A stretch of DNA of 64,000 nucleotides from Rhodopirellula baltica SH 1 (GTDB lineage Bacteria > Planctomycetota > Planctomycetia > Pirellulales > Pirellulaceae): assembly GCF_000196115.1 (NCBI RefSeq), contig NC_005027.1, positions 6,072,001-6,136,000 of the forward strand. Direction: 5' to 3'. Both the position numbers and the translations under genes were made by a program. Positions within the stretch are counted from its first letter, which is position 1. Each line of letters starts with the position of its first letter. Below the pieces are notes generated by a model. The model had not been told where the DNA came from. It saw only the letters and a list, made by a program, of their open reading frames with translations, and did not search any database. Shown piece after piece: positions 9,958-57,624 of this stretch.

Positions 9958-11022
9958 TCAGTATGGCGGTGCGAGTCGGCGAAAGCCGTGAAAAAGAACG
10001 ATCATCAGGAACGCGAGGTTGCGAAGAACGACTGCGAGTGGATTGATCCAAGGTGCTTTGTTGGGCGTTCTGCCCAGTGATGTTGGCTCCAATGTGTCGG
10101 CGAGTTTTTCAGCGAGGTGCTCGATCCACATGATGCTACGCGGCCAGTTTTGGATGCCGTCGAGCCATTTCGTTGGAATGCCATCGCGTCCCACACCGGC
10201 ACCAACGATTCCGCCAACAATCGCAGCAGTGGTGTCAGCATCACCGCCGCACTCGATGATGGAGGTGACCGCTTGTCGGTAGTCGTTTGGGCTGGACAGC
10301 CAGGCGTGAACGGCAAGCGGAACTGTGTGAAGCGTGTAGCCGGTGATGCCTCGTGAGAGTCCTTGTGAATCTGCAAAGTCTCGGGTGGATTCGTTCGACT
10401 GAGCACTGTCGATTGAGGCTCGGATTCGATTCAGTAATTCCGATTGCTCGTTGTTCAATGCCTTCTCAACGTCTTTCAGCCAAAGCTTGTGGTCGACCAT
10501 GGGAAAAGTTCGAGCGTGCCGTGCGGCAAGTGCGACCGCGATCGCACCTTGTTCTGCCTTTGGGTCAGAATGTGTCAATCGCGATGACGCACGCACGAAG
10601 TCCAGCATCAGCGAACGATCATCGATTGCCGCACCAAAGATGGCCGCTCGCATTGCCGGTCCGTTGCCAGCGGAGAAAACACCAGACGTTTGTGGCTTTG
10701 CGCCCAACCAAAGTTTGATACCGGATCGAGCCGTTGCTTTGCCGACTCCCGCGGGCAGTCCCAGGATCCACCACCGCAAACGCCATGCAAAACGCTTCGC
10801 GAATTGATTGACGTCGGATGGAGATTCCATTAACGATTGAGCCACCATGCAGGTGTGCTCCGTGTCGTCGGAAATCATCCCGTGACCAAGAAAAAAACGG
10901 TGTCGTGTCGGTGGGCCGAGAAGACGTGCGGCTCGATCGGGAGGCAAGCCTTCGTAGGGAAGTCCAAGAGCGTCACCAACGGCGGTGCCCAGCATGCAGC
11001 CAACAATGGATTTGTAATGCAA
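9958..11022 (-). CDS. ADP-ribosylglycohydrolase family protein
   Basis: A 354-residue member of the ARH/DraG superfamily, which hydrolyses ADP-ribose from proteins, nucleic acids or small adducts using two Mg ions. The N-terminal signature is GCMLGTAVGDALGLPYEG. The metal-binding motifs are MISDDTEHT (about residues 48-58) and GGDADTTAAIVGGIVGAGVG (about 255-275). A hydrophobic C-terminus (NPLAVVLRNLAFLMIVLFHGFRRL) is unusual and may anchor it to the membrane. It lies 63 bases downstream of the KptA gene on the same strand. KptA is also an ADP-ribose-transferring enzyme, so the two may act in one pathway. Confidence 0.92.
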   Translation of the reverse strand: MHYKSIVGCMLGTAVGDALGLPYEGLPPDRAARLLGPPTRHRFFLGHGMISDDTEHTCMVAQSLMESPSDVNQFAKRFAWRLRWWILGLPAGVGKATARSGIKLWLGAKPQTSGVFSAGNGPAMRAAIFGAAIDDRSLMLDFVRASSRLTHSDPKAEQGAIAVALAARHARTFPMVDHKLWLKDVEKALNNEQSELLNRIRASIDSAQSNESTRDFADSQGLSRGITGYTLHTVPLAVHAWLSSPNDYRQAVTSIIECGGDADTTAAIVGGIVGAGVGRDGIPTKWLDGIQNWPRSIMWIEHLAEKLADTLEPTSLGRTPNKAPWINPLAVVLRNLAFLMIVLFHGFRRLAPPY

Positions 11023-11085
11023 GACAGCTGCTCCAGGATGAAACGTTGGGTTTCGGTCAGTCAGATTCGCAAAACAGCCGACGGA

Positions 11086-11640
11086 TCACGTTGGGAAGGT
11101 GAGGTAAGTCGGCGGAACCGAATCGACTAACCAAACTTCATTCTCAGAGAGATAGAAAATATGACCGTCTTGATGCATTCGCTGTGCAGCGATGAGAAGG
11201 AGTTTGGGTTTGCCACGTCGCGAACCAACATTGGTTGCCGTTGCTTCGTCGGCGGAGAGGTGAACGTGGTTTCGAGATCGCTTTTGCAATCCTTGTTCAC
11301 GGATACGAGGAAGGAATGCATCCACGGTTCCATGGTAAAGCGTTGCGGGCGGATTCGCTTCGGTCAGGTTCAGGTCCACTCCTGCAACCGAATGCCCTTG
11401 GCTGGCGCGAATGCGAAGCCCATCATCGCTTAGGACAAAACGTTTCTTGTCATTTGTCGCGACCACTTCGTGAATCAATTCGAGCGTCAGCTTCTTGCCA
11501 CGTGTGTTTGCGTTTGCAATCAGTCCATCGATTTCGAGCCAGCCTTGCTCGTCCAGCGTCATGCCGATGACACCGGGTTGGTGTCGGAGGACGAGGCTCA
11601 GGAATTTGCTCGTCGACACGAGTTGTTTGTCTGCTTTCAT
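11086..11640 (-). CDS. kptA: RNA 2'-phosphotransferase (Tpt1/KptA family)
   Basis: A 184-residue protein beginning MKADKQLVSTSKFLSLVLRHQPGVIGM. KptA/Tpt1 uses NAD+ to remove a 2'-phosphate from RNA by forming an ADP-ribosylated intermediate. Visible family motifs are LSLVLRHQPG, the NAD-binding YHGT with its downstream HVHLSAD, and the C-terminal FYLSENEVWLVDSVPPTYL. Length is standard for bacteria. A much longer upstream frame exists but overlaps the next gene and lacks family similarity, so ATG 11640 is preferred. Bacteria have no tRNA splicing that leaves 2'-phosphates, so its substrate here is open. Confidence 0.93.
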   Translation of the reverse strand: MKADKQLVSTSKFLSLVLRHQPGVIGMTLDEQGWLEIDGLIANANTRGKKLTLELIHEVVATNDKKRFVLSDDGLRIRASQGHSVAGVDLNLTEANPPATLYHGTVDAFLPRIREQGLQKRSRNHVHLSADEATATNVGSRRGKPKLLLIAAQRMHQDGHIFYLSENEVWLVDSVPPTYLTFPT

Positions 11641-11672
11641 CGTGAAGATTCTATCGAAAGGCGGCGTTGAGG

Positions 11673-12044
11673 TTACGTAGTGGTGCGTCGCGTCAGGTCG
11701 ACGTTGTCGTAGAGATGCATGCCTTCCGTGTGCGATGAGGTCAGTGGTTGAGCAACGATGCCACCAAAGCGTGCTTCGGTCACGTACACCGGTCGGTGAT
11801 GGATCAGACAAAACACGGACCCGCAAACTCTGGACGCCGTGTCTGGTTCGTCCGCATAACCAAAGCAAAAGCCGCCCGAAAAACTCACGTTTCCAAATTC
11901 CAGGCGGCGGCCATCTCCATCCTCCGCCAGAGCCAAGCATTCTTTGCAGATGTACCAGGGATACCGAAGAAACACACGTTGCTTGGAACCACAAACTGGG
12001 CAATGGTGGTCGGGCAGTTCGCTTGAGGGTGAGGGCTGGGGCAT
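11673..12044 (-). CDS. Conserved zinc-ribbon protein of unknown function
   Basis: A 123-residue soluble protein with a four-Cys ribbon (HHCPVCGSKQRVFLRYPWYICKEC, residues about 13-37). A compact domain follows (LEFGNVSFSGGFCFGYAD, VFCLIHHRPVYVTEARFGGIVAQPL). The RYPWYIC and EARFGGIV stretches look like a conserved family found in diverse bacteria without an assigned role. It is the first gene of the minus-strand set with KptA (32-nt gap) and ADP-ribosylglycohydrolase. A link to RNA or ADP-ribose metabolism is suggested only by this position. Confidence 0.7.
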   Translation of the reverse strand: MPQPSPSSELPDHHCPVCGSKQRVFLRYPWYICKECLALAEDGDGRRLEFGNVSFSGGFCFGYADEPDTASRVCGSVFCLIHHRPVYVTEARFGGIVAQPLTSSHTEGMHLYDNVDLTRRTTT

Positions 12045-48648: not shown

Positions 48649-49138
48649 AGCATCGTCTCAGACGGCCATGAAACGTTGGTTGCCTACTTCCGCTGCACTT
48701 CCGAAGATGGTTTCAGTGTGCCAACGGAGGAGGCAGACCGGTGACTGGCCGACCGATATGACCGGCTGCCAGATGGGCAATCCATGATTCCAGGCTCAAT
48801 GAAATATTGCGGGTAACCAACGTCCCTGTGATCCAGACGATGTCGAGATGCCCTTATCGCTTCGCCTGACAAGCTACACAATCACCGGTCAACATCGCGG
48901 CAAAATCCCGAGCAAAAGTCTCGACTTTGCTCGGTGATTATGAGCGTTGCTCAACAAATCAGCTGTCACGTCAAAGGCAGGATGCCATTCTGTGCCATCG
49001 CTCTCATTGGCCGGAGCAGGACCCAAAGAACGGCGACGATATTCCACATGCCGTTTTTCCAAAGCGTCTTGCAACCATGATACGCTGAATTGAGTCACGC
49101 CACCGGCGTTCATCTCTTCCTTTCGGCAGGAGTGCAGT
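48649..49138. other. Intergenic region, possibly gene remains
   Basis: Nearly 500 bases with several short open frames on the minus strand (for example 48889-49182, which overlaps the start of the next gene). None has a recognisable domain, so no gene is called. Decayed coding sequence is possible. Confidence 0.5.
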
Positions 49139-52100
49139 ATGAGATCCCCACGCATCTTCACGATGAAACGAAGTCTCGCCAAGCAACTTGCTCGTGGTGT
49201 TCACGTTGGTGGTCAATTTGTGTTCGTTGATCTAGGTGCGATCGATCGAGATAAAGTTGAGTTTGCGAGCGATCTTCATCCTGCGTTCTCTGACATTGCT
49301 ACAAATGCTGATCAAGGGCAATGTCGATTGACGATTCCCATTCCTCAGGGGGAAAGACTCACGTTGCCAGGTGTCAAGGTCAAAGCAACTCAGCCACCCC
49401 CTTTGGCGCTGGCAAGCCTGACGTGCGATCGCGATCTTTATCGATTTGGTAGCGATCAAGTGAACGTCTTGGTCGTCGATCTTGATTCACCGCAGCAAGA
49501 GGTTTGTGTTGATCTGCTGTTGGGAACTGCGAACGGCAGTCCAACACAGTTCGATCAACGGCACGTTCGACTCAATGAGTGCGGACTGGGGATTGTTCGC
49601 TTTGATGATTTACCAATTGGAACCTACCAAGTCGTTCGAGCGGATTCTCCTTGCAAAATTGATGGTTGCGAGTTTTCGGTTGCGGGCTTTGACTTGGCAC
49701 CGCTTGTCGCGACGATCGGCCAGATTCAACTTCGCAAAAAAGCGATGTCGTGCACGCTGCGCATTTCTCATTTCTCCAAACCATTGACCGGTGCAATTCG
49801 CGTTGACTTGTACGATCAGAAGTCTCGAATCGACTCCCGCCGGGTCGGCGTCAAACAAGGGTTAGCCATTGTCGGGTTGGAGATCGATGGCGACGGACCG
49901 CACCACTTGGAAATCACCTTGGTGAAAGACTCTTCCGCCACCGCAACGATCCCGCTGCCGGGAAGCGAGCGACAGCAAAGGCGGGAAACTGTCTTGACGA
50001 GTAGTGGGCCCACGACAACCGCGTCGCTAATGCCCGGACAGGGCACCACCGAAGCACTTGGTTTGCATGTCCGTCAGACCGGACAAGATAATTCGCCTGT
50101 CCAAATCACCGATACGCTGCGTGGTGTTGTCCGCATCGGAGCAATGCAGGATATCGAGGACTGTGTGGTTTGCACTTGTCCTTTTCTCTCTCCGAGGGCC
50201 ACCTCAAGCGAAGCTGCCAATGCACCCTCGCCGAACACGTATTCACGGCGACTGGGGGATTTGGCGGCTGGAGAAGTGATCGAGTTCCCGTCGAGCGAAT
50301 TGGCTGGGTTGATTTCAGTTGGTTGCTTCGTCGATGAAAAACCGTGGGAGGCACGAGCGGTCACGCTGCAACGCTGCAACTGGAATCCATCGGTTCGGAT
50401 TGCTCAGAGCAATGATTCAAGCAATGAAAGGGAACTCGAGGATGAATTTGACAGGAAGGCTTCTTTCGAACCGGGAACGAACGTTTCGATGGCCATCGAT
50501 CTGGGAACGGAAGAGTCCGGGTATGCGGCGGTGGTGATTCGTGATGCTCGATTGCAGCCGAGTTCACGTCCAAAGCAGCGGTTGGCGGCGAGTATCAAGG
50601 TCGCTGCCGAGCAAGCACTGATCGGCGAAGTTGAAACACAAACGGTCTACGGCTCTAGCGAACAATCGGAACGCGATCCGTACTGGGCACATTTCTCGAC
50701 GCGGACGCCGCCTATCGACGATGAAACGCTTTCAAAGTTTGTCGATCGTGAACTCATCAGCGAATCGCAGGCTGATCATGTGATGGAAGCGGCGTCCGAG
50801 TGTGGAAAACCTTACTTCACGTTGCTTCAGGATTATGGTTATGCCGCCGACGACGACATGTCGCGAGCTCTCGCTGAAATCTACGGATACCAATTTGTTG
50901 ATTTGGACAATTTGTCAATCAACGAGGCAATTATTGAGCTGTGTCCCGAGTCGATTGCACGCGAGAACACTGTCATTCCCATCCGCGAAGATTTTGACGG
51001 CAATCTCGTCTTCGCAATGTCCAATCCCATCGACTTGGAAACGATTGAAAAGCTCCGCTTTATCTTGAATCGTCATATTGAGACCGTTCTCGCCACGCCC
51101 GATGCCATTGTTGAAGCGATCAACCATTTCTACGGGCAGATCGAGGGAGAATCCGCTGACAGCATGTTGCAGGAGTTCACCGATTCAGCGATCGATTTTA
51201 CCGAGACAATGGATGCGGGCTGCGAAAGCGTCGTGCCAAATCCAGTCGCAGCGAATGATAGCGAAACCGCGTTGTCACCACCGGAGCAGCTGGATGCAGA
51301 GGATGCTCATGTCATTTTCTGCGAACTGATTGAATGTCCGTCGGGTCGAGGCCAAGCGGCGGTGGAGTTGCCAGAACGAATGGGACGCTACACCGTTGAC
51401 TCGTTCGTTGTTTCTGGACGTCAGTGGTCGCATGTTGAGAACGAGTTTGAGGTGCATGCCGATCCCTATGTCAAACTTCAGGTCCCGGCGGTTCTCTTGG
51501 ATGGCGACCAAGCCAGTGGTCGGGTAATCGCACGGTGCCAGTCGGGGAATTTTTCTCTGACGGTTGATTGTGACGGGACTTCAGTAGAACTTCATCTTGC
51601 AGACGCTCCCTACGATCCGGTCACGACGGACCATCTGACGACGGCGGAATCCGAGTTCACCTTTGTTGTCGGACTCGGGCGGTACACGGCGAAGGTCTGC
51701 GATCGGGTCAGCGGTAAAACTCGAGAAGATATCCATCAAGTCAAGCCGCTCGGGAAGCTTGTCGAGCTTCGGCGAACCATGCGGATGCTCACCGACGGTG
51801 AACGGATTGAACTCGGCGATCAGATTCGGCAGATTCGTTTGCTTCCCAGTGTGCAACCAATGAAGCAAATGGTGGCGGAGGCGACGACGAATTACGATCA
51901 TCTTTGTTGTGAACAAACTGCGGCCAAGCTTTTCTCGGCAGTCGTCTGTTTGGCAAATCAAATTGGCAGCGGTGAACCAATCGAAAAATCCTGCACGGCG
52001 ATCCGTGTCGGCCTGAAACGACAGCAACGCATGTGGTTGCCGGGAAAAGGATTCGCAATTTACCCAGGCAATTCACCGGACGTGACCTGGGGACGCATGG

Positions 52101-52990
52101 CGACCATGCATTTACTGAAAATGGATTTTGTGAGTGAGCTGATTGAGTCCAACAGCATGGCACGCTCGCTGCTCGGCGAAGTTCGACAGCTTGCCCGCGA
52201 GTCAGCCAAGCATTACCGGATCGCTTGGCCACCAGAGTCGATCGGATCAAGCGAAGACGCCTACGCTCAATTGCGTTTCGGTCACGGGGACCAGAGCCAA
52301 GCCCTCGAATACGCACGCTTGCAAGCCCGAAAGCCGATTGCTGGCGTTCGAACATTTTGGCGCGCCGATCAAGCGATGGCTGCTGCTGCTCTGCTCCGTG
52401 GAGGAAGCGAGCAGGCTGGCACGCGAGCATCTGATACCGCCGAAGCCACGCGATTGTCGAATCGATTGTTTGATGAGCTTGGGCCGGAGGGGCGTTTGTA
52501 TTCGACCGTTGACTCTGTCGCACTCATTGTTCTGCTGCTTGAGCTTTCTCGAACGGAATGGATGCAGTCGGATTGCACAATAACGGTCAATGACCAAGTA
52601 CAAACGATCGCCAATGCCATCAACAGCACTGAGCCGATTGAATCATTGCAAACCAATCATGGAACCCTCGCGGTGGAGTATCTTTCCTATGTCGAGCAGG
52701 ACTGGATGCGTTTTGTTTCCAACACGCCAATTACTGTCCAGTTGATGGTAGGTGGTCACGCCCAAACGCAATTCCAGGAAGGCGACGTGATTGAACTTCG
52801 CGTGCGGATCAAGCAAGGATACAAAGCGGGGGACCTTGTTTGGGTCGCCTTGCCACCATGCCTGTCACGAATCCAAGGTGGCGGCCAAGTCAAGCAATTC
52901 GCGGTCGACATGGAGGGAGAATCGGAAACGGCGATCCGCCTAGCGGCAACTGCACCCTCGTCACATCCATTTTGTCCGCCGGCGAGTTAG
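49139..52990 (+). CDS. Alpha-2-macroglobulin-like protein with inserted MshEN domain
   Basis: A 1283-residue protein. Residues about 90-500 are macroglobulin-like beta domains (ASLTCDRDLYRFGSDQVNVLV; SGYAAVVIRDARLQP). Residues about 525-680 are a MshEN/GspE N-terminal domain (FVDRELISESQADHVMEAA, DDMSRALAEIYGYQFVDL, LVFAMSNPIDLETIEKLRF). From about 725 the macroglobulin pattern resumes (GQAAVELPERMGRYTVDSF). The thioester domain carries YDHLCCEQTAAK: Cys923 and Gln926 match the C-x-E-Q thioester of complement and YfhM proteins. The MshEN domain sits about where the protease bait region lies. Its c-di-GMP-binding RLG motif is degenerate. No signal peptide or lipobox is visible; ATG 49163 is an alternative start. 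The frame stops at TAG, after which a conserved-looking tail continues. Confidence 0.82.
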   Translation: MRSPRIFTMKRSLAKQLARGVHVGGQFVFVDLGAIDRDKVEFASDLHPAFSDIATNADQGQCRLTIPIPQGERLTLPGVKVKATQPPPLALASLTCDRDLYRFGSDQVNVLVVDLDSPQQEVCVDLLLGTANGSPTQFDQRHVRLNECGLGIVRFDDLPIGTYQVVRADSPCKIDGCEFSVAGFDLAPLVATIGQIQLRKKAMSCTLRISHFSKPLTGAIRVDLYDQKSRIDSRRVGVKQGLAIVGLEIDGDGPHHLEITLVKDSSATATIPLPGSERQQRRETVLTSSGPTTTASLMPGQGTTEALGLHVRQTGQDNSPVQITDTLRGVVRIGAMQDIEDCVVCTCPFLSPRATSSEAANAPSPNTYSRRLGDLAAGEVIEFPSSELAGLISVGCFVDEKPWEARAVTLQRCNWNPSVRIAQSNDSSNERELEDEFDRKASFEPGTNVSMAIDLGTEESGYAAVVIRDARLQPSSRPKQRLAASIKVAAEQALIGEVETQTVYGSSEQSERDPYWAHFSTRTPPIDDETLSKFVDRELISESQADHVMEAASECGKPYFTLLQDYGYAADDDMSRALAEIYGYQFVDLDNLSINEAIIELCPESIARENTVIPIREDFDGNLVFAMSNPIDLETIEKLRFILNRHIETVLATPDAIVEAINHFYGQIEGESADSMLQEFTDSAIDFTETMDAGCESVVPNPVAANDSETALSPPEQLDAEDAHVIFCELIECPSGRGQAAVELPERMGRYTVDSFVVSGRQWSHVENEFEVHADPYVKLQVPAVLLDGDQASGRVIARCQSGNFSLTVDCDGTSVELHLADAPYDPVTTDHLTTAESEFTFVVGLGRYTAKVCDRVSGKTREDIHQVKPLGKLVELRRTMRMLTDGERIELGDQIRQIRLLPSVQPMKQMVAEATTNYDHLCCEQTAAKLFSAVVCLANQIGSGEPIEKSCTAIRVGLKRQQRMWLPGKGFAIYPGNSPDVTWGRMATMHLLKMDFVSELIESNSMARSLLGEVRQLARESAKHYRIAWPPESIGSSEDAYAQLRFGHGDQSQALEYARLQARKPIAGVRTFWRADQAMAAAALLRGGSEQAGTRASDTAEATRLSNRLFDELGPEGRLYSTVDSVALIVLLLELSRTEWMQSDCTITVNDQVQTIANAINSTEPIESLQTNHGTLAVEYLSYVEQDWMRFVSNTPITVQLMVGGHAQTQFQEGDVIELRVRIKQGYKAGDLVWVALPPCLSRIQGGGQVKQFAVDMEGESETAIRLAATAPSSHPFCPPAS

Positions 52991-53071
52991 CGTTTTCTGG
53001 TGTGCTTGCGAAACATGTATGACGAGGATCGAATCGGAAACCTCGGGCCGATCTCGGTCCAGGTTACGTAA
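52991..53071 (+). pseudogene. Detached C-terminal tail of the macroglobulin-like protein
   Basis: Directly after the TAG stop (52988-52990) the same frame continues RFLVCLRNMYDEDRIGN, then LGPISVQVT, and ends at TAA 53069-53071. The stretch R-F-x-V-C-x-R-N-M-Y-x-E-x-R-x-G resembles the receptor-binding or C-terminal strand region expected of the protein. It is therefore probably the original end of the gene, cut off by a CAG-to-TAG change. Confidence 0.55.
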
Positions 53072-53655
53072 TGAACTTGTAGGCTTGAACGCGCCGAATG
53101 AATTTGACGATTGATGTCGCGATGTTAGTGAGTGGTCTACGCAAAGTTCCGGTTTACTCGTCCATGACAAGAATCAGTGCACACCGACTCGCTGTCCACA
53201 AACAACTTGCCGCACGAACTGACGCATCCATGCAGAAAATTGAAACCATTGTTGCATCGGATTCGCCTGCCTCCGACAATCTATGTTATTCCTGTTGATC
53301 CGAACTGAACCGTGTCTCTTCGGTTTCAATCCGAATCAACAGTGTTCGCTCTCCGTGAGTCCAATGATGACACCCCTGCCGTTTTAGGCGTCTAATAGGA
53401 TCTGACGCTCGCGATCGCGTTGTGATCATAGCGATTCAGGCATTCAGGAAGGGCGACTTTTGCGATGGCGATTCTTATCTTCCGAATTTGGCACAATGAT
53501 GTTCAGTTGAGCTGACCACCCATCGCGTTTTCGCACGCCACCATGCTTTCTGGGACATGAGCTTTCTGTTCGGTTCTTAGACTTACGCGATAGCTTCACA
53601 CTGACGAGTCGTTGGAAGCCACCCCGTTTCTCTTCACCTTTCTCGAGTGTCTACG
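53072..53655. other. Intergenic region holding a weak copy of the 3'-flank repeat
   Basis: Nearly 600 bases. TGAACCGTGTCTCTTCGGTT at about 53306, followed by CTCTCCGTGAGTCCAATGATGACACCCCTGCC, is the weakest (copy B) of the 3'-flank repeats. The short open frame at 53098-53298 has no family features. Confidence 0.5.
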
Positions 53656-55196
53656 ATGCTGCGTTGGATCAGAAACTTCCTTCTGTTTTGGACGATCGTT
53701 CCGGTGGTGTCTCTGGCGAGAGCCCAGGAATCGGACGCTTCTACAACGAATGAAACGTTCTCGCTGAAGCTTTCGACGCCAACGCCGATCGTTCATGTCA
53801 ACACCGAGGGTGACCTCGCACTATGTGCTCAGTGGCTTCCAGCTGGTTTCGATGATGGAGAGAAGCGACTCGGCACAGCCGTGGTCCGGTTGGTAACCGT
53901 CGATCTTGATTCCCGTAGGCTGCTTGAACAAACGGATTTGCCAGCCAAAGTATACGGATTTGGAATCGGACACGAGCGGTTGTACATCGTAACTTTGGAT
54001 GCCGGGGAAGTCAGTGTGTTGGATGCACGCACTCATGCAAACCTGGGAACTCAAAGCCACGAAGATTGCTTTGGGCAGTTGGAGGTCGTGGCAAACCGAC
54101 TCGTTTGCTCGTCAGAAGGACATCTGCGGCTCAACCTAAATGACTTGACAGAATCGAAGCGTTGGGCTGGCCTTGATCCTGCAACGCTTCGGGGAAATGC
54201 TCCGTTGCGGCGGCATGCCGAGGTTTTTTCAGTTGAGGGAGCATGGCACTTGGACGGCATAATGTATGGTGAAGCGATGAACCCATTGATGATCGTGGAC
54301 GGACGTATGTCGAGAGAGCAGCTTTTTGGGTTTTGGCGAATGGAAGCACAGGCCAAGAGACCAATTGGCAACATGGCGTGTCGTGATCTTCCACTGACAG
54401 TGGTCGTGTCGTCCAAGGGCTACGCGAGTGAGGAGGCAGGGATGGAGCTCGTAGCGAAGGTGTTTTGCAAACATCAGACATTACCTCTCGCAGAATACGA
54501 CATCGGAAAAGTTGACGGCAAGCACTTCAGGATGAAAGGGGAAAGGATCGTTTGGAAAAGGCGTGAAACGTCGGCCGGGAAACCTTTTGGATTTGCACAA
54601 TTCGGACGGTACAAGCCATTGAGGACACAGTTCTATTTGGGTGACGACAACGAAATTCCGCTTGCAATGGCGAACGCCCGTTCTCGTGTGGTCATTGCGT
54701 CGGAAGGCTTCCTCCATGTAATTGATCTTGGCGATTCGGTCAAAGAGCAGGTTGAGAAAATTCCGCGTTTGAAGAAACAGCAGACCTTCGTGTCAATCTC
54801 GCTTGCTGGCGAAGACGTGGTTCTTGAGCATGAGCTGTGGAAGCAATTACCCGATGTAAGATTCGGCGTTTCGGTGCCTTGCATCTATGGGGAAGATCGC
54901 ACCGTCGTGGATGCATCGAGTGGTACTGCGCGGGTTTCAGCGAAACAGTTGGAAGAAGCAATTCAGAATAAGATTGCCATGCTTTCTCCTGAGAGACTGA
55001 ATGCTGATGAGCAAAAGGCGGTGACGTACTTCAAGCAGGCATTTAATAAACCGCCAACGGGGCGATGTTTTCTGCAGCCGGTGAACGTGACTGCAGTCGC
55101 TACCAGTGAGGGAAGAGAGGTTGCCGATTCGCTCAGATATTCAATGATCGTTGAAATCCCAGAGGCGACCTTTCTGAGCCTTCGGCAAAACAAAGA
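53656..55196 (+). pseudogene. Secreted/membrane protein gene, 5' part, split by IS66-type element
   Basis: ATG 53656 gives a signal peptide (MLRWIRNFLLFWTIVPVVSLARAQE) and about 490 residues of beta-rich extracytoplasmic sequence (LYIVTLDAGEVSVLDARTHANLG, VVIASEGFLHVIDLGDSV) that may be a propeller. The insertion sequence enters after base 55196. The present frame runs on into the element and stops at 55269 after 24 foreign residues. Joining 53656-55196 to 56676-57624 gives 2490 bases, exactly 830 codons without a stop, so the original protein had 829 residues. No known family is recognised. Confidence 0.85.
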
Positions 55197-56667
55197 GTAC
55201 TTGTTTACCGTGCCGCGATGGGCAGAGGCAGGGCAAGCGGGCTCGTCGTGGTCAATTGACAGCGGATGAAGTCGAAAGGATCGGCCAGTCTTTGCTTGCA
55301 CGTTTGCATCACGCTCATGATTCGTGACTGGGCCAATGCTCCGGCTTCGGTGCGGTTGCCGCCCCATACTTTTCGATTCACGACCGCCGGACGGATCGCC
55401 TGCTCGCCTCGCCAGTTCGTTGCGTCGGCACCGGGACGGTGCAGGAACGTGAATAGATCATCGAGATGATTTTCCAAAAACTTCGCGAAGCGTTCATTGG
55501 CAGCATGCTTCTTTGGGTGACGAACCAATTTCCACATCTTCATCGTCAATCGGCCCGCCATCACCTTCATCCCATGTGCCGTCATCTCATCGGATCGAAA
55601 ACGGTTGCGATACTCGAAGCCTGCGAGCAGCAAGTCTTTCACTCCACGCGGAAACGCCAACGCACCACTGGTCCCGCTTTGGATTAACGATTCACATCGC
55701 CGAAGCAGGTGCGCAAAGCATTGTTGATGAGTCGCTGCGGTGAACTTGTCATAGACCGCCCAGCCGTCGTGTCCAAAGATTCCCGACCAGTCGATGCCCA
55801 GCAGTCTTTCCGCCGGCCCGATGCTTCTCGTCGCATCCACTTCGTAACACGTCGCGGTCAGTCCGACGAACGCATGAAGCCAAGCCCCACGTCCATCGAC
55901 TCGCCAACCCGTTTCATCTCCGACCACCTGAGGCGAACCACGCACGGCCCTTCGGACCTGAGCGTAGGCGTCCTCTAGTCGATCAGCGGTGCGAAGCATG
56001 CTTCGGCAACTGGTGCTGCGACTGACCCGAATCTCAAAAAGCATTTCCAGCAGACGCTTGACCTTGCCGTGACTGAGCCCAAGTTCTTTGTTCAAAAGCG
56101 CCATCGCGGCGTGAACGTTCGGTCCGAGTTGAGCCGCGGCGGCTCCGACCGCGTCGGACGTTTGCAGTTTGTGCCGACCCTGGACATGAGATCCACAGCC
56201 ACAGCAAATTCCAGCGTCGATGTTGAATTGCCGGTTGATGACGACGCGAGGGATATCGGTTTGGAACTGCACGAGCGTTTCGGTCTTGGTCAGTTCGCCA
56301 TGGCCGCAGTCGGGACAGCACGCTGGTAGGGGAACGTCGTACGTTTCATCGATCTGTTCGGGCACGGCTCGGCGATGGTGCTTGCCGTGATCTTCACCGC
56401 TTTTACGCCCTGGCTTTTTCGGATCGGCTTTGCGTTTCTTGCGAAACGGAGCCGCTTGGCGTTTACCTTCGCGTTCAACTTTCTCAAGACGTGCCGTGAG
56501 CAACTCAACTTGCTTGACCAGCATGTCGATGATCGCCTGCTGCTTCTCAAGCAGCGGCTTGCAATCCGGGCAATCGGTGGTGATCTTGGGCACATCCATG
56601 ACCCGCGAATTGTGGTCGATTCAGGCCAAATTCACCAACACCAGTTTTTCGCTGGGTAAACAAGTAC
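55197..56667 (-). mobile_element. IS66-family insertion sequence (ISBst12-like), complete
   Basis: A 1471-bp element. The 13-bp ends GTACTTGTTTACC (55197-55209) and its complement (56655-56667) are perfect inverted repeats starting with GTA, as in IS66 elements. An exact 8-bp target duplication AACAAAGA flanks it (55189-55196 and 56668-56675), the length known for IS66. Only one transposase gene is present and tnpA/tnpB are absent, which is the ISBst12 arrangement. Perfect ends and duplication point to recent insertion. Confidence 0.93.
55205..56599 (-). CDS. tnpC: IS66-family transposase (TnpC-type)
   Basis: A 464-residue protein. An N-terminal coiled coil (LEKQQAIIDMLVKQVELLTARLEKVERE), a basic patch and a zinc-binding region (LPACCPDCGHGEL, CCGCG) are followed by the DDE core (VVGDETGWRVDGRGAWLHAFVG; GIFGHDGWAVYDKF). 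The IS66 C-terminal signature is NWRGEQAIRPAVVNRKVWGGNRTEAGALAQSRIMSVMQTCKQRL. Length and motifs are complete, so the element may be able to move. It fills nearly the whole element and is opposite in direction to the gene it interrupts. Confidence 0.95.
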   Translation of the reverse strand: MDVPKITTDCPDCKPLLEKQQAIIDMLVKQVELLTARLEKVEREGKRQAAPFRKKRKADPKKPGRKSGEDHGKHHRRAVPEQIDETYDVPLPACCPDCGHGELTKTETLVQFQTDIPRVVINRQFNIDAGICCGCGSHVQGRHKLQTSDAVGAAAAQLGPNVHAAMALLNKELGLSHGKVKRLLEMLFEIRVSRSTSCRSMLRTADRLEDAYAQVRRAVRGSPQVVGDETGWRVDGRGAWLHAFVGLTATCYEVDATRSIGPAERLLGIDWSGIFGHDGWAVYDKFTAATHQQCFAHLLRRCESLIQSGTSGALAFPRGVKDLLLAGFEYRNRFRSDEMTAHGMKVMAGRLTMKMWKLVRHPKKHAANERFAKFLENHLDDLFTFLHRPGADATNWRGEQAIRPAVVNRKVWGGNRTEAGALAQSRIMSVMQTCKQRLADPFDFIRCQLTTTSPLALPLPIAAR

Positions 56668-56675
56668 AACAAAGA

Positions 56676-57624
56676 TTCGGTTCGAAATCAAATCACGGCA
56701 AAATTGCAGCAAGCGGAGCAAAAAGCCAGCCTTGCCAAGGCAGCAGCGAATCAGAAGCGTAGGCAAGAGATAGCGAACGAAAAAGCAATGGAGAAATGGC
56801 AAGAGGACCGATTCAATTTCATCGTTCGTTGTTTTTACGGTAGTCTTGTTATGTTCGCTTTGTCCCTCTTGGTCTTCAAGTTGTGGAAATGGAGGCGTGC
56901 TTCGTTGCAAAAAATGGCATTGGCAGATTCTAGTGTTGTTGTTCCGGATTCCCACGGGCTGCGTAAAGGGTTGCTCACTGTCCATTGGAGCATGATTGCT
57001 CTACTGGTAGTCGGATTGCTGCCGTTAATAGGAGCGGCGTGTGAAGCGGTCGGGGTGATCTCTGAGATTCGAATTCCGATGGGGCCGCTCGTGGTCTGTG
57101 CGTGCTGTTGTGTTGCGGGCATTCTCGCCGGAACGGGGTTGTGCATCACTGGGCCTGAATCTCTTGGTTCTAGGTTGTATGCAACCGGCACGCTTGTTTT
57201 GGGAATCGCCTCAGTCTTTGTATTGGTCGGTTTCGTAACTGCGGTATTTCTTAGCGTTGGTCTTCGGGCCAATGAGTCGAGTGCGTTGTCCGTCCTCGCG
57301 CGTTTGCTCGCATGGACGAGCATGATCGTGTTCGTTTCAGCCTGCGTTTCAATGCTGCTTTTTCTTCGCACCCTCGCTGAGTCGCTGCAGCACCATGGGG
57401 GGATCATACGCGCAAACGTTGCAATGTTTGGGGTTGCTCTTTGCGTTTTGCTTTTCGTGTTGTGTTATGCTCATGCATGGAATTCATCCGGACGTGCTAC
57501 CTACCTGGAAATGATGCGCGGTGTGGTGTTTTTATGGGCCGTGATCGCCTGCGTTGCGTTTGCCATCTACATGATCTCCGTAGGGTTGATTCGAGATCTT
57601 GCCAAGCTACTTGGGCGTGATTGA
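56676..57624 (+). pseudogene. Secreted/membrane protein gene, 3' part, split by IS66-type element
   Basis: Continuation of the gene broken at 55196. After the target duplication the frame reads a Lys/Gln/Glu-rich coiled coil (LQQAEQKASLAKAAANQKRRQEIANEKAMEKWQED). About eight membrane segments follow (FYGSLVMFALSLLVF, MIALLVVGLLPLIGA, GTLVLGIASVFVLVGFVTAVF, and others), ending LIRDLAKLLGRD. A TTG at 56704 could restart translation of this part, but the sequence is best read as the C-terminal 316 residues of the 829-residue protein. Its membrane domain would have anchored the exported N-terminal domain. Confidence 0.85.

Follow-up and report, generated by a model that had tools for sequence, protein, structure and literature searches.

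The window analyzed here, a 64,000-nucleotide stretch (bases 6072001-6136000) of the one-contig, 7,145,576-base genome of Rhodopirellula baltica SH 1, contains a gene, here called A2MF-MshEN, whose product almost certainly adopts the fold of the alpha-2-macroglobulin (A2M) superfamily (A2MF), as judged from its structure model. In blood, proteins of this group, such as A2M and complement C3, trap proteases or label microbes. In the best explanation as a whole, to which we give about even chances, this product is a cytoplasmic protein of the A2M/C3 type, with macroglobulin (MG) domains MG2-MG6 and MG7, a CUB domain, a thioester domain (TED) and MG8, that carries a PilB-derived MshEN domain and linker in its activation slot. 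The computations show the A2MF fold and its slot, CxEQ and lock residues, no recognizable export signal, a single clade of the MshEN segments and purifying selection on the gene.

When a 1200-residue model was used in a fold search, 38 of the 50 listed entries were A2MF proteins by title (CD109, TEP1, C3, C4, C5, A2ML1, and A2M of man, frog egg, E. coli and Salmonella), and the other 12 were MshEN/GSPII structures. For the C-terminal 590 residues of a relative from the same genus (genome G154), 47 of the 50 listed entries were A2MF by title, the other three being a pair of squalene-hopene cyclases and an entry whose title names a factor H complex. The TED of this C-terminal model matches the TE domain of C5 at 3.6 Å over 216 residues and C3d (2gox) at 3.9 Å over 211, and the cyclases fit its barrel as well as C5 and C3d do. 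The string of MG domains, the CUB around the TED and the C-terminal MG domain give collinear fold alignments over residues 1-1107 of the first model and 1-590 of the second, for which the predicted template modeling scores are only 0.39 and 0.53, respectively. The macroglobulin/TED fold, for which the first-pass annotation had pointed to structure prediction, was thus recovered in collinear A2MF alignments.

By sequence, a profile of the five family members aligned with hhalign to E. coli YfhM at 917-986 on 1181-1254, including CLEQ (E 9e-5), with additional weak and non-collinear matches such as 1215-1241 on 755-782 (E 0.022), while its matches to this genome's own exported A2M were weak (best E 0.007). 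In plasmid records, a tblastn search with the C-terminal part matched two annotated alpha-2-macroglobulins at the level of the TED (E 3e-3). The curated Pfam cut-offs were missed (PF00207 at 15.3 bits versus 21; PF07678 and PF01835 absent). A search against the sequences of solved structures gave no match up to E 10 for the N-terminal half; for the C-terminal half, it placed Protein A repeats on top (E 8e-4), which we judged to be chance because none of their single stretches passed the limit, and Salmonella A2M at E 0.37. Passing the Pfam cut-offs is not a defining property of A2MF, and missing them is a matter of detection limit. The CCEQ thioester motif noted at first pass is intact (C923-C-E-Q926) and identical in all five members, and Tyr919, four residues before Cys923, matches Tyr1183 of E. 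coli A2M (YfhM), whose role as the lock residue is described in passages of PMC4498604. The thioester is predicted, with good confidence, to be competent in the intact family members.

The proposal that an MshEN domain lies in the bait-region position is borne out, as PF05157 scores above its cut-off with the MshEN fold present, and the insertion into MG6 is seen in both the model and the fold alignments. MshEN and its tethers are found between a strand ending near residue 469 and a strand from 725 (model strands 378-386 and 642-650), and the alignment to the C3 alpha chain begins at C3 residue 746, which we take to be where the second MG6 half begins. With MshEN between the two MG6 halves and the C3 alignment beginning at 746, the model places the domain, very probably, in the slot of the A2M bait region and the C3 anaphylatoxin domain. 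Passages of PMC9156758 and PMC13069473 describe the bait region as an insert in MG6 that is replaced by the anaphylatoxin domain in complement. Two further planctomycete genomes, G588 and G630, encode the same CCEQ protein, in which Pfam found no MshEN; segments of 270 residues (26% proline plus glycine) and 135 residues (17%), respectively, fill their slots, versus 8-11% in the fusions. This enrichment suggests that the ancestral slot may have been a flexible, bait-like region that MshEN replaced.

The full architecture occurs in 3 of 241 genomes of the same family, for each of which two candidate places were scored: the window genome, G154 (82% identity) and G033 (another genus, 38%). When the part behind MshEN was searched for in 240 family genomes, the only addition was a 52-residue remnant in G151, and 396 genomes of the order returned the same three matches. 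Phylum-wide, the five-member profile matched 20 of 392 genomes, strongly in the window genome, G033, G588 and G630 and weakly in 16, where every match falls in an open frame of 1043-2088 residues and the 10 inspected have CxEQ behind a tyrosine. Twelve and six genomes from the classes of G588 and G630 held no extra member above this weak level, and a scan of named genome contigs gave one relative of the MshEN region. The G588 relative (L065 9000-9658) has an extra N-terminal region of ~200 residues, and Pfam found nothing in this protein. Since the same fusion recurs in two other planctomycetes at 82% and 38% identity, the possibility that an assembly or annotation artefact joined two genes, which the first-pass annotation had raised and in favor of which we found nothing, is refuted. 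A mobile or phage origin was also rejected: the C-terminal part had no tblastn match in phage records, a pattern search of viral contigs gave no relative, and the two plasmid matches are at TED level. By eye, we recognized neither conserved operon partners nor a pbpC-like open reading frame (ORF) beside the gene in the ORF lists, in which no profile search was run. We found no open-license paper containing both MshEN (or T2SSE_N) and macroglobulin, and the open-license literature on Rhodopirellula with macroglobulin is, by its titles and abstract openings, not on this protein.

The absence of an export signal, also noted at first pass, extends to the whole set of relatives, as judged by hydropathy and motif: none of the five members has a signal-like N-terminus or lipobox. 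Within their first 40 residues, 11-residue hydropathy peaks at 1.48, 1.36, 0.95, 1.62 and 0.83, whereas the exported A2M encoded in this genome reaches 3.15 and YfhM 2.65 (a 19-residue measure could not separate the window protein from YfhM and was replaced by the shorter one). The window protein contains 27 cysteines and the others 25, 23, 15 and 29, versus 6 and 3 in the same two reference proteins. Residues 1-84 occupy the place of the N-terminal MG domains and lipobox of bacterial A2Ms, and the fold alignments to E. coli A2M start only at its residue 385. The lack of a hydrophobic N-terminus, the abundance of cysteine and the presence of a domain otherwise known from cytoplasmic ATPases argue for the cytoplasm, a location that we predict with high confidence. 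These same features, together with alignments that start behind the N-terminal MG domains, make it improbable that the protein is an exported bacterial A2M using an unrecognized exit route, even though E. coli ECAM and P. aeruginosa MagD are periplasmic according to passages of PMC5764988, PMC3328433 and PMC4498604. The ordinary A2M of this genome (L052 2460-8603, minus strand, near base 4921500) has 2046 residues, a hydrophobic N-terminus and an ECSEQ motif, with Pfam MG2, A2M and bMG10 above cut-off.

The MshEN segments of the three fusions group in one clade, with support of 99/97 and recovery in 100% of 200 bootstrap trees, in a tree where the other relatives are mostly PilB-type proteins of the family and where long branches were noted. 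A Walker A motif is present in 31 of the 32 MshEN loci checked, which are therefore ATPases. By sequence, the insert resembles planctomycete PilB-type ATPases and includes their highly conserved linker (DSMLQEFTDxAIDFTET). Against 30 PilB/GspE-type sequences, the median identity of the fusions is 0.26-0.31 in MshEN_N (0.45 among those sequences themselves) and 0.51-0.59 in MshEN_C (0.67), while in the linker it is 0.92 for the window and G154 and 0.71 for G033 (0.96). Between the window and G033, identity is 38% for the protein, 21% for MshEN_N, 56% for MshEN_C and 67% for the linker. MshEN_N is the least kept and MshEN_C and the linker the best kept; thus, the conserved part is the part that does not bind ligand.

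This pattern bears on whether a nucleotide such as cyclic di-GMP (c-di-GMP) might act on MshEN to free the thioester without proteolysis. MshEN is a c-di-GMP receptor domain found in many fusions (passages of PMC5013675), but none of the three fusion proteins has a strict or even relaxed match to the tandem RLG...Q motifs of 24 residues, in line with the earlier remark that these residues are not conserved, and the ligand-binding MshEN_N is the least conserved part. Binding of c-di-GMP is unlikely, and such a ligand switch very unlikely. Because the relaxed motif gave any match in only two of 33 loci (L003 and L012 among six of the same genome and 27 others, the L012 match being counted wherever placed), its loss is no peculiarity of the fusion. 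The suggestion that ligand sensing has taken the place of proteolysis is not supported. The tether behind MshEN changes fast and is modeled with low confidence: the predicted local distance difference test (pLDDT) is <50 across residues 667-723, and residues 691-726 are 31% identical to G154 with a ratio of nonsynonymous to synonymous substitution rates (dN/dS) of 0.85. With this tether and the poorly conserved MshEN_N, proteolysis could still be the trigger.

If proteolysis is the trigger, the MshEN_C/linker segment could itself be the bait, such that a protease or invader factor attacking the PilB linker would cut the copy in MG6, spring the trap and be covalently tagged. Consistent with this integrated decoy, the PilB segment sits in the activation slot, the linker and not the ligand pocket is preserved, and the DNA pattern encoding the linker has two exact matches in this genome, namely this gene and one PilB-type gene with Walker A (three more sites have two mismatches, and a control pattern matched once). 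On the other hand, the tether is more bait-like, and we know of no protease that cuts the PilB linker. The module also occurs outside any A2M slot: four VIT-VWA proteins (G158, G190, G222 and a diverged one in G005) have an MshEN-like sequence and linker behind VWA, and Pfam identifies MshEN and a T2SSE stub in those of G158 and G222, although the G222 stub is under the cut-off. Two others (G072 and G079) have the DSxLxEF motif without MshEN, and the linker motif is present in 6 of the 15 VIT-VWA loci scanned. The occurrence of the module outside the A2M slot favors docking over bait, and we lean slightly toward a docking or recognition role for it, whereas the decoy is a minor possibility. 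Among these VIT-VWA loci, L087 (1592-4756), L088 (1202-4420), L091 and L093 combine the PilB-type MshEN and linker without a Walker A motif, while L095 and L096 retain the DSxLxEF motif alone.

In the docking mechanism, Cys923 and Gln926 would form a buried thioester, and the MshEN_C/linker would dock the protein on the usual partner of PilB-type ATPases, that is, the pilus or secretion platform or PilB itself. If the flexible tethers on either side of MshEN were then cut or displaced, the TED would be released and would couple covalently to the nearby protease or target. More speculatively, and with rather low probability, the protein may provide intracellular complement-like surveillance, in which a cytosolic thioester trap has a trigger that imitates the PilB pilus/secretion motor, any factor that attacks or binds this motor would set off the trap and receive a covalent tag, and the VIT-VWA proteins with the PilB module may serve the same site.

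The layout of the gene is given in Table 1. The first-pass annotation assigned it to 49139..53071, of which the start stands, supported by the AGGAG upstream of ATG 49139, but the end does not, as there is an in-frame TAG at 52988 and 53071 belongs to the next in-frame stop.

Table 1. Features of the A2MF-MshEN gene in window coordinates; MG domain numbering is inferred from aligned ranges.
Feature	Position	Strand	Remarks
A2MF-MshEN gene	49139..52990	+	1283 codons plus TAG; relatives L008/L038 (82%), L009/L039 (38%)
AGGAG, Shine-Dalgarno-like	49128..49132	+	6 bases upstream of ATG, read directly
N-terminal segment, residues 1-84, without recognized domain	49139..49390	+	outside structure model
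Macroglobulin beta-sandwich domains, MG2 to first half of MG6, residues 85-470	49391..50548	+	model secondary structure, VIA-align ranges
MshEN domain (MshEN_N plus MshEN_C), residues 524-668, inside MG6	50708..51142	+	
PilB inter-domain linker motif SADSMLQEFTDSAIDFTET, residues 672-690	51152..51208	+	median identity 0.92 to 30 PilB/GspE-type relatives (residues 667-690)
Flexible tether, residues 691-724	51209..51310	+	fast-changing; low pLDDT
Second half of MG6, MG7, start of CUB, residues 725-903	51311..51847	+	weak PF00207; C3 alpha-chain alignment from C3 746 = model residue 640
Thioester domain (alpha-helical), residues 906-1138	51854..52552	+	
CCEQ thioester motif, residues 923-926, Tyr919 at 'lock' position	51905..51916	+	same in 5/5 family members
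Rest of CUB and C-terminal macroglobulin domain, residues 1147-1283, minus last two predicted strands	52577..52987	+	
Premature TAG stop	52988..52990	+	CAG in G151 remnant, Gln in G154
Frame behind TAG: 26 codons including RNMYDEDRIG, then TAA	52991..53071	+	in frame in G154, G033, G588, G630

Between the window and G154, dN/dS is 0.17 overall, 0.13 in the TED and 0.06 beyond residue 1230; the gene is under purifying selection. The TAG nevertheless removes 26 residues, including RNMYDEDRIG, of which RNM[YF] is kept in G154, G033, G588 and G630. The corresponding site in E. coli A2M is MY at 1634, and passages of PMC4498604 assign this Met-Tyr to the pocket that shields the thioester and to the EXMY motif, to which the bait region binds once cleaved. 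With the last 26 residues lost, the window copy may well be impaired, a possibility that we rate as evenly balanced. The gene here could be a freshly broken relic, with a product that is misfolded or has an unprotected thioester, which is compatible with the other readings and with function in G154 and G033. The missing codons are present in four relatives and hold two strands of the G154 C-terminal model (563-571 and 584-589), a deletion spanning roughly window 48700-52858 has taken nearly the whole gene from the sister genome G151, whose DNA matches on either flank and reads CAG where the window has the stop, and an IS66-family element cut a gene ~2 kb away. Conversely, the 1283 codons contain no other stop or frameshift, and dN/dS is low overall and near the C-terminus; we give the relic about even chances. 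The low dN/dS, the TAG and the G151 deletion together mean that selection acted on the gene until recent times and that part of this genus can now do without it.

Several observations concern the surroundings. G151 keeps only the 3' end of the gene (L045 9240-9640). The IS66-family element (55189-56675; transposase ORF 55205-56599, minus strand, PF03050 E 7e-33) is bounded by terminal repeats GTACTTGTTTACC, with a target duplication of 8 bases, AACAAAGA; it apparently divides a single gene into two parts (53647-55269 and 56704-57624), and the site is uninterrupted in G151. Genes of the KptA family (PF01885) and for ADP-ribosylglycohydrolase (PF03747) lie side by side at 9958-12003, ~37 kb upstream of the A2MF gene; in G154, the A2MF gene is near DNA matching KptA-family RNA 2'-phosphotransferase and ADP-ribosylglycohydrolase genes (L038 7219-7809 and 14105-14854), with adjoining Prok-JAB and ThiF-family genes (L038 2513-3849) ~4 kb from it.

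When compared to known systems, the protein is A2MF by fold and yet apart from the bacterial type I A2Ms, because it lacks a recognizable export signal and, in this copy, the Met-Tyr motif. With E. coli YfhM/ECAM and Salmonella SaA2M, it shares collinear MG domains, an MG6-type insert, CUB, a TED with CxEQ and lock tyrosine, and the C-terminal MG domain. In contrast to them, it is rich in cysteine, lacks a recognizable signal or lipobox and the N-terminal MG domains, has CCEQ rather than CLEQ and MshEN in the bait slot, and has no pbpC recognized by eye alongside. The CAGE complex also involves large proteins with A2M-like beta domains, many of them in Planctomycetota, but these have ~2,300 residues and, in bacteria, mostly signal peptides, and the word thioester is absent from the main text of PMC12485934. 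The resemblance to PilB, GspE and MshE comprises the full MshEN fold and the PilB linker, whereas the fusion has no ATPase behind MshEN, places the domain inside an MG domain and has lost the c-di-GMP residues. The VIT-VWA-MshEN proteins of related planctomycetes (L087, L088/L092, L091 and the diverged L093) likewise combine a PilB-type MshEN and linker with a large protein that recalls plasma proteins of eukaryotes, although there MshEN stands behind VWA; in the two scanned, Pfam places a T2SSE stub after MshEN and identifies no thioester domain. The PilB linker shared by A2M-like and VIT-VWA proteins is a possible docking motif, of which we know no earlier description. Finally, as in complement C3, C4 and C5, a folded domain fills the MG6 slot, and C3d and the TE domain of C5 both resemble the TED in fold; unlike these proteins, the fusion is bacterial and probably cytoplasmic, has MshEN instead of an anaphylatoxin domain and leaves no room for a C345C domain. 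To our knowledge, thioester macroglobulins and complement proteins are exported, and intracellular roles for human C3 have been proposed. A bacterial cytoplasmic lineage, if true, raises the question of how a thioester works among cellular nucleophiles, and against what, while a C3a/bait slot that accepts a bacterial signaling or docking domain opens the trigger step of the superfamily to experiment.

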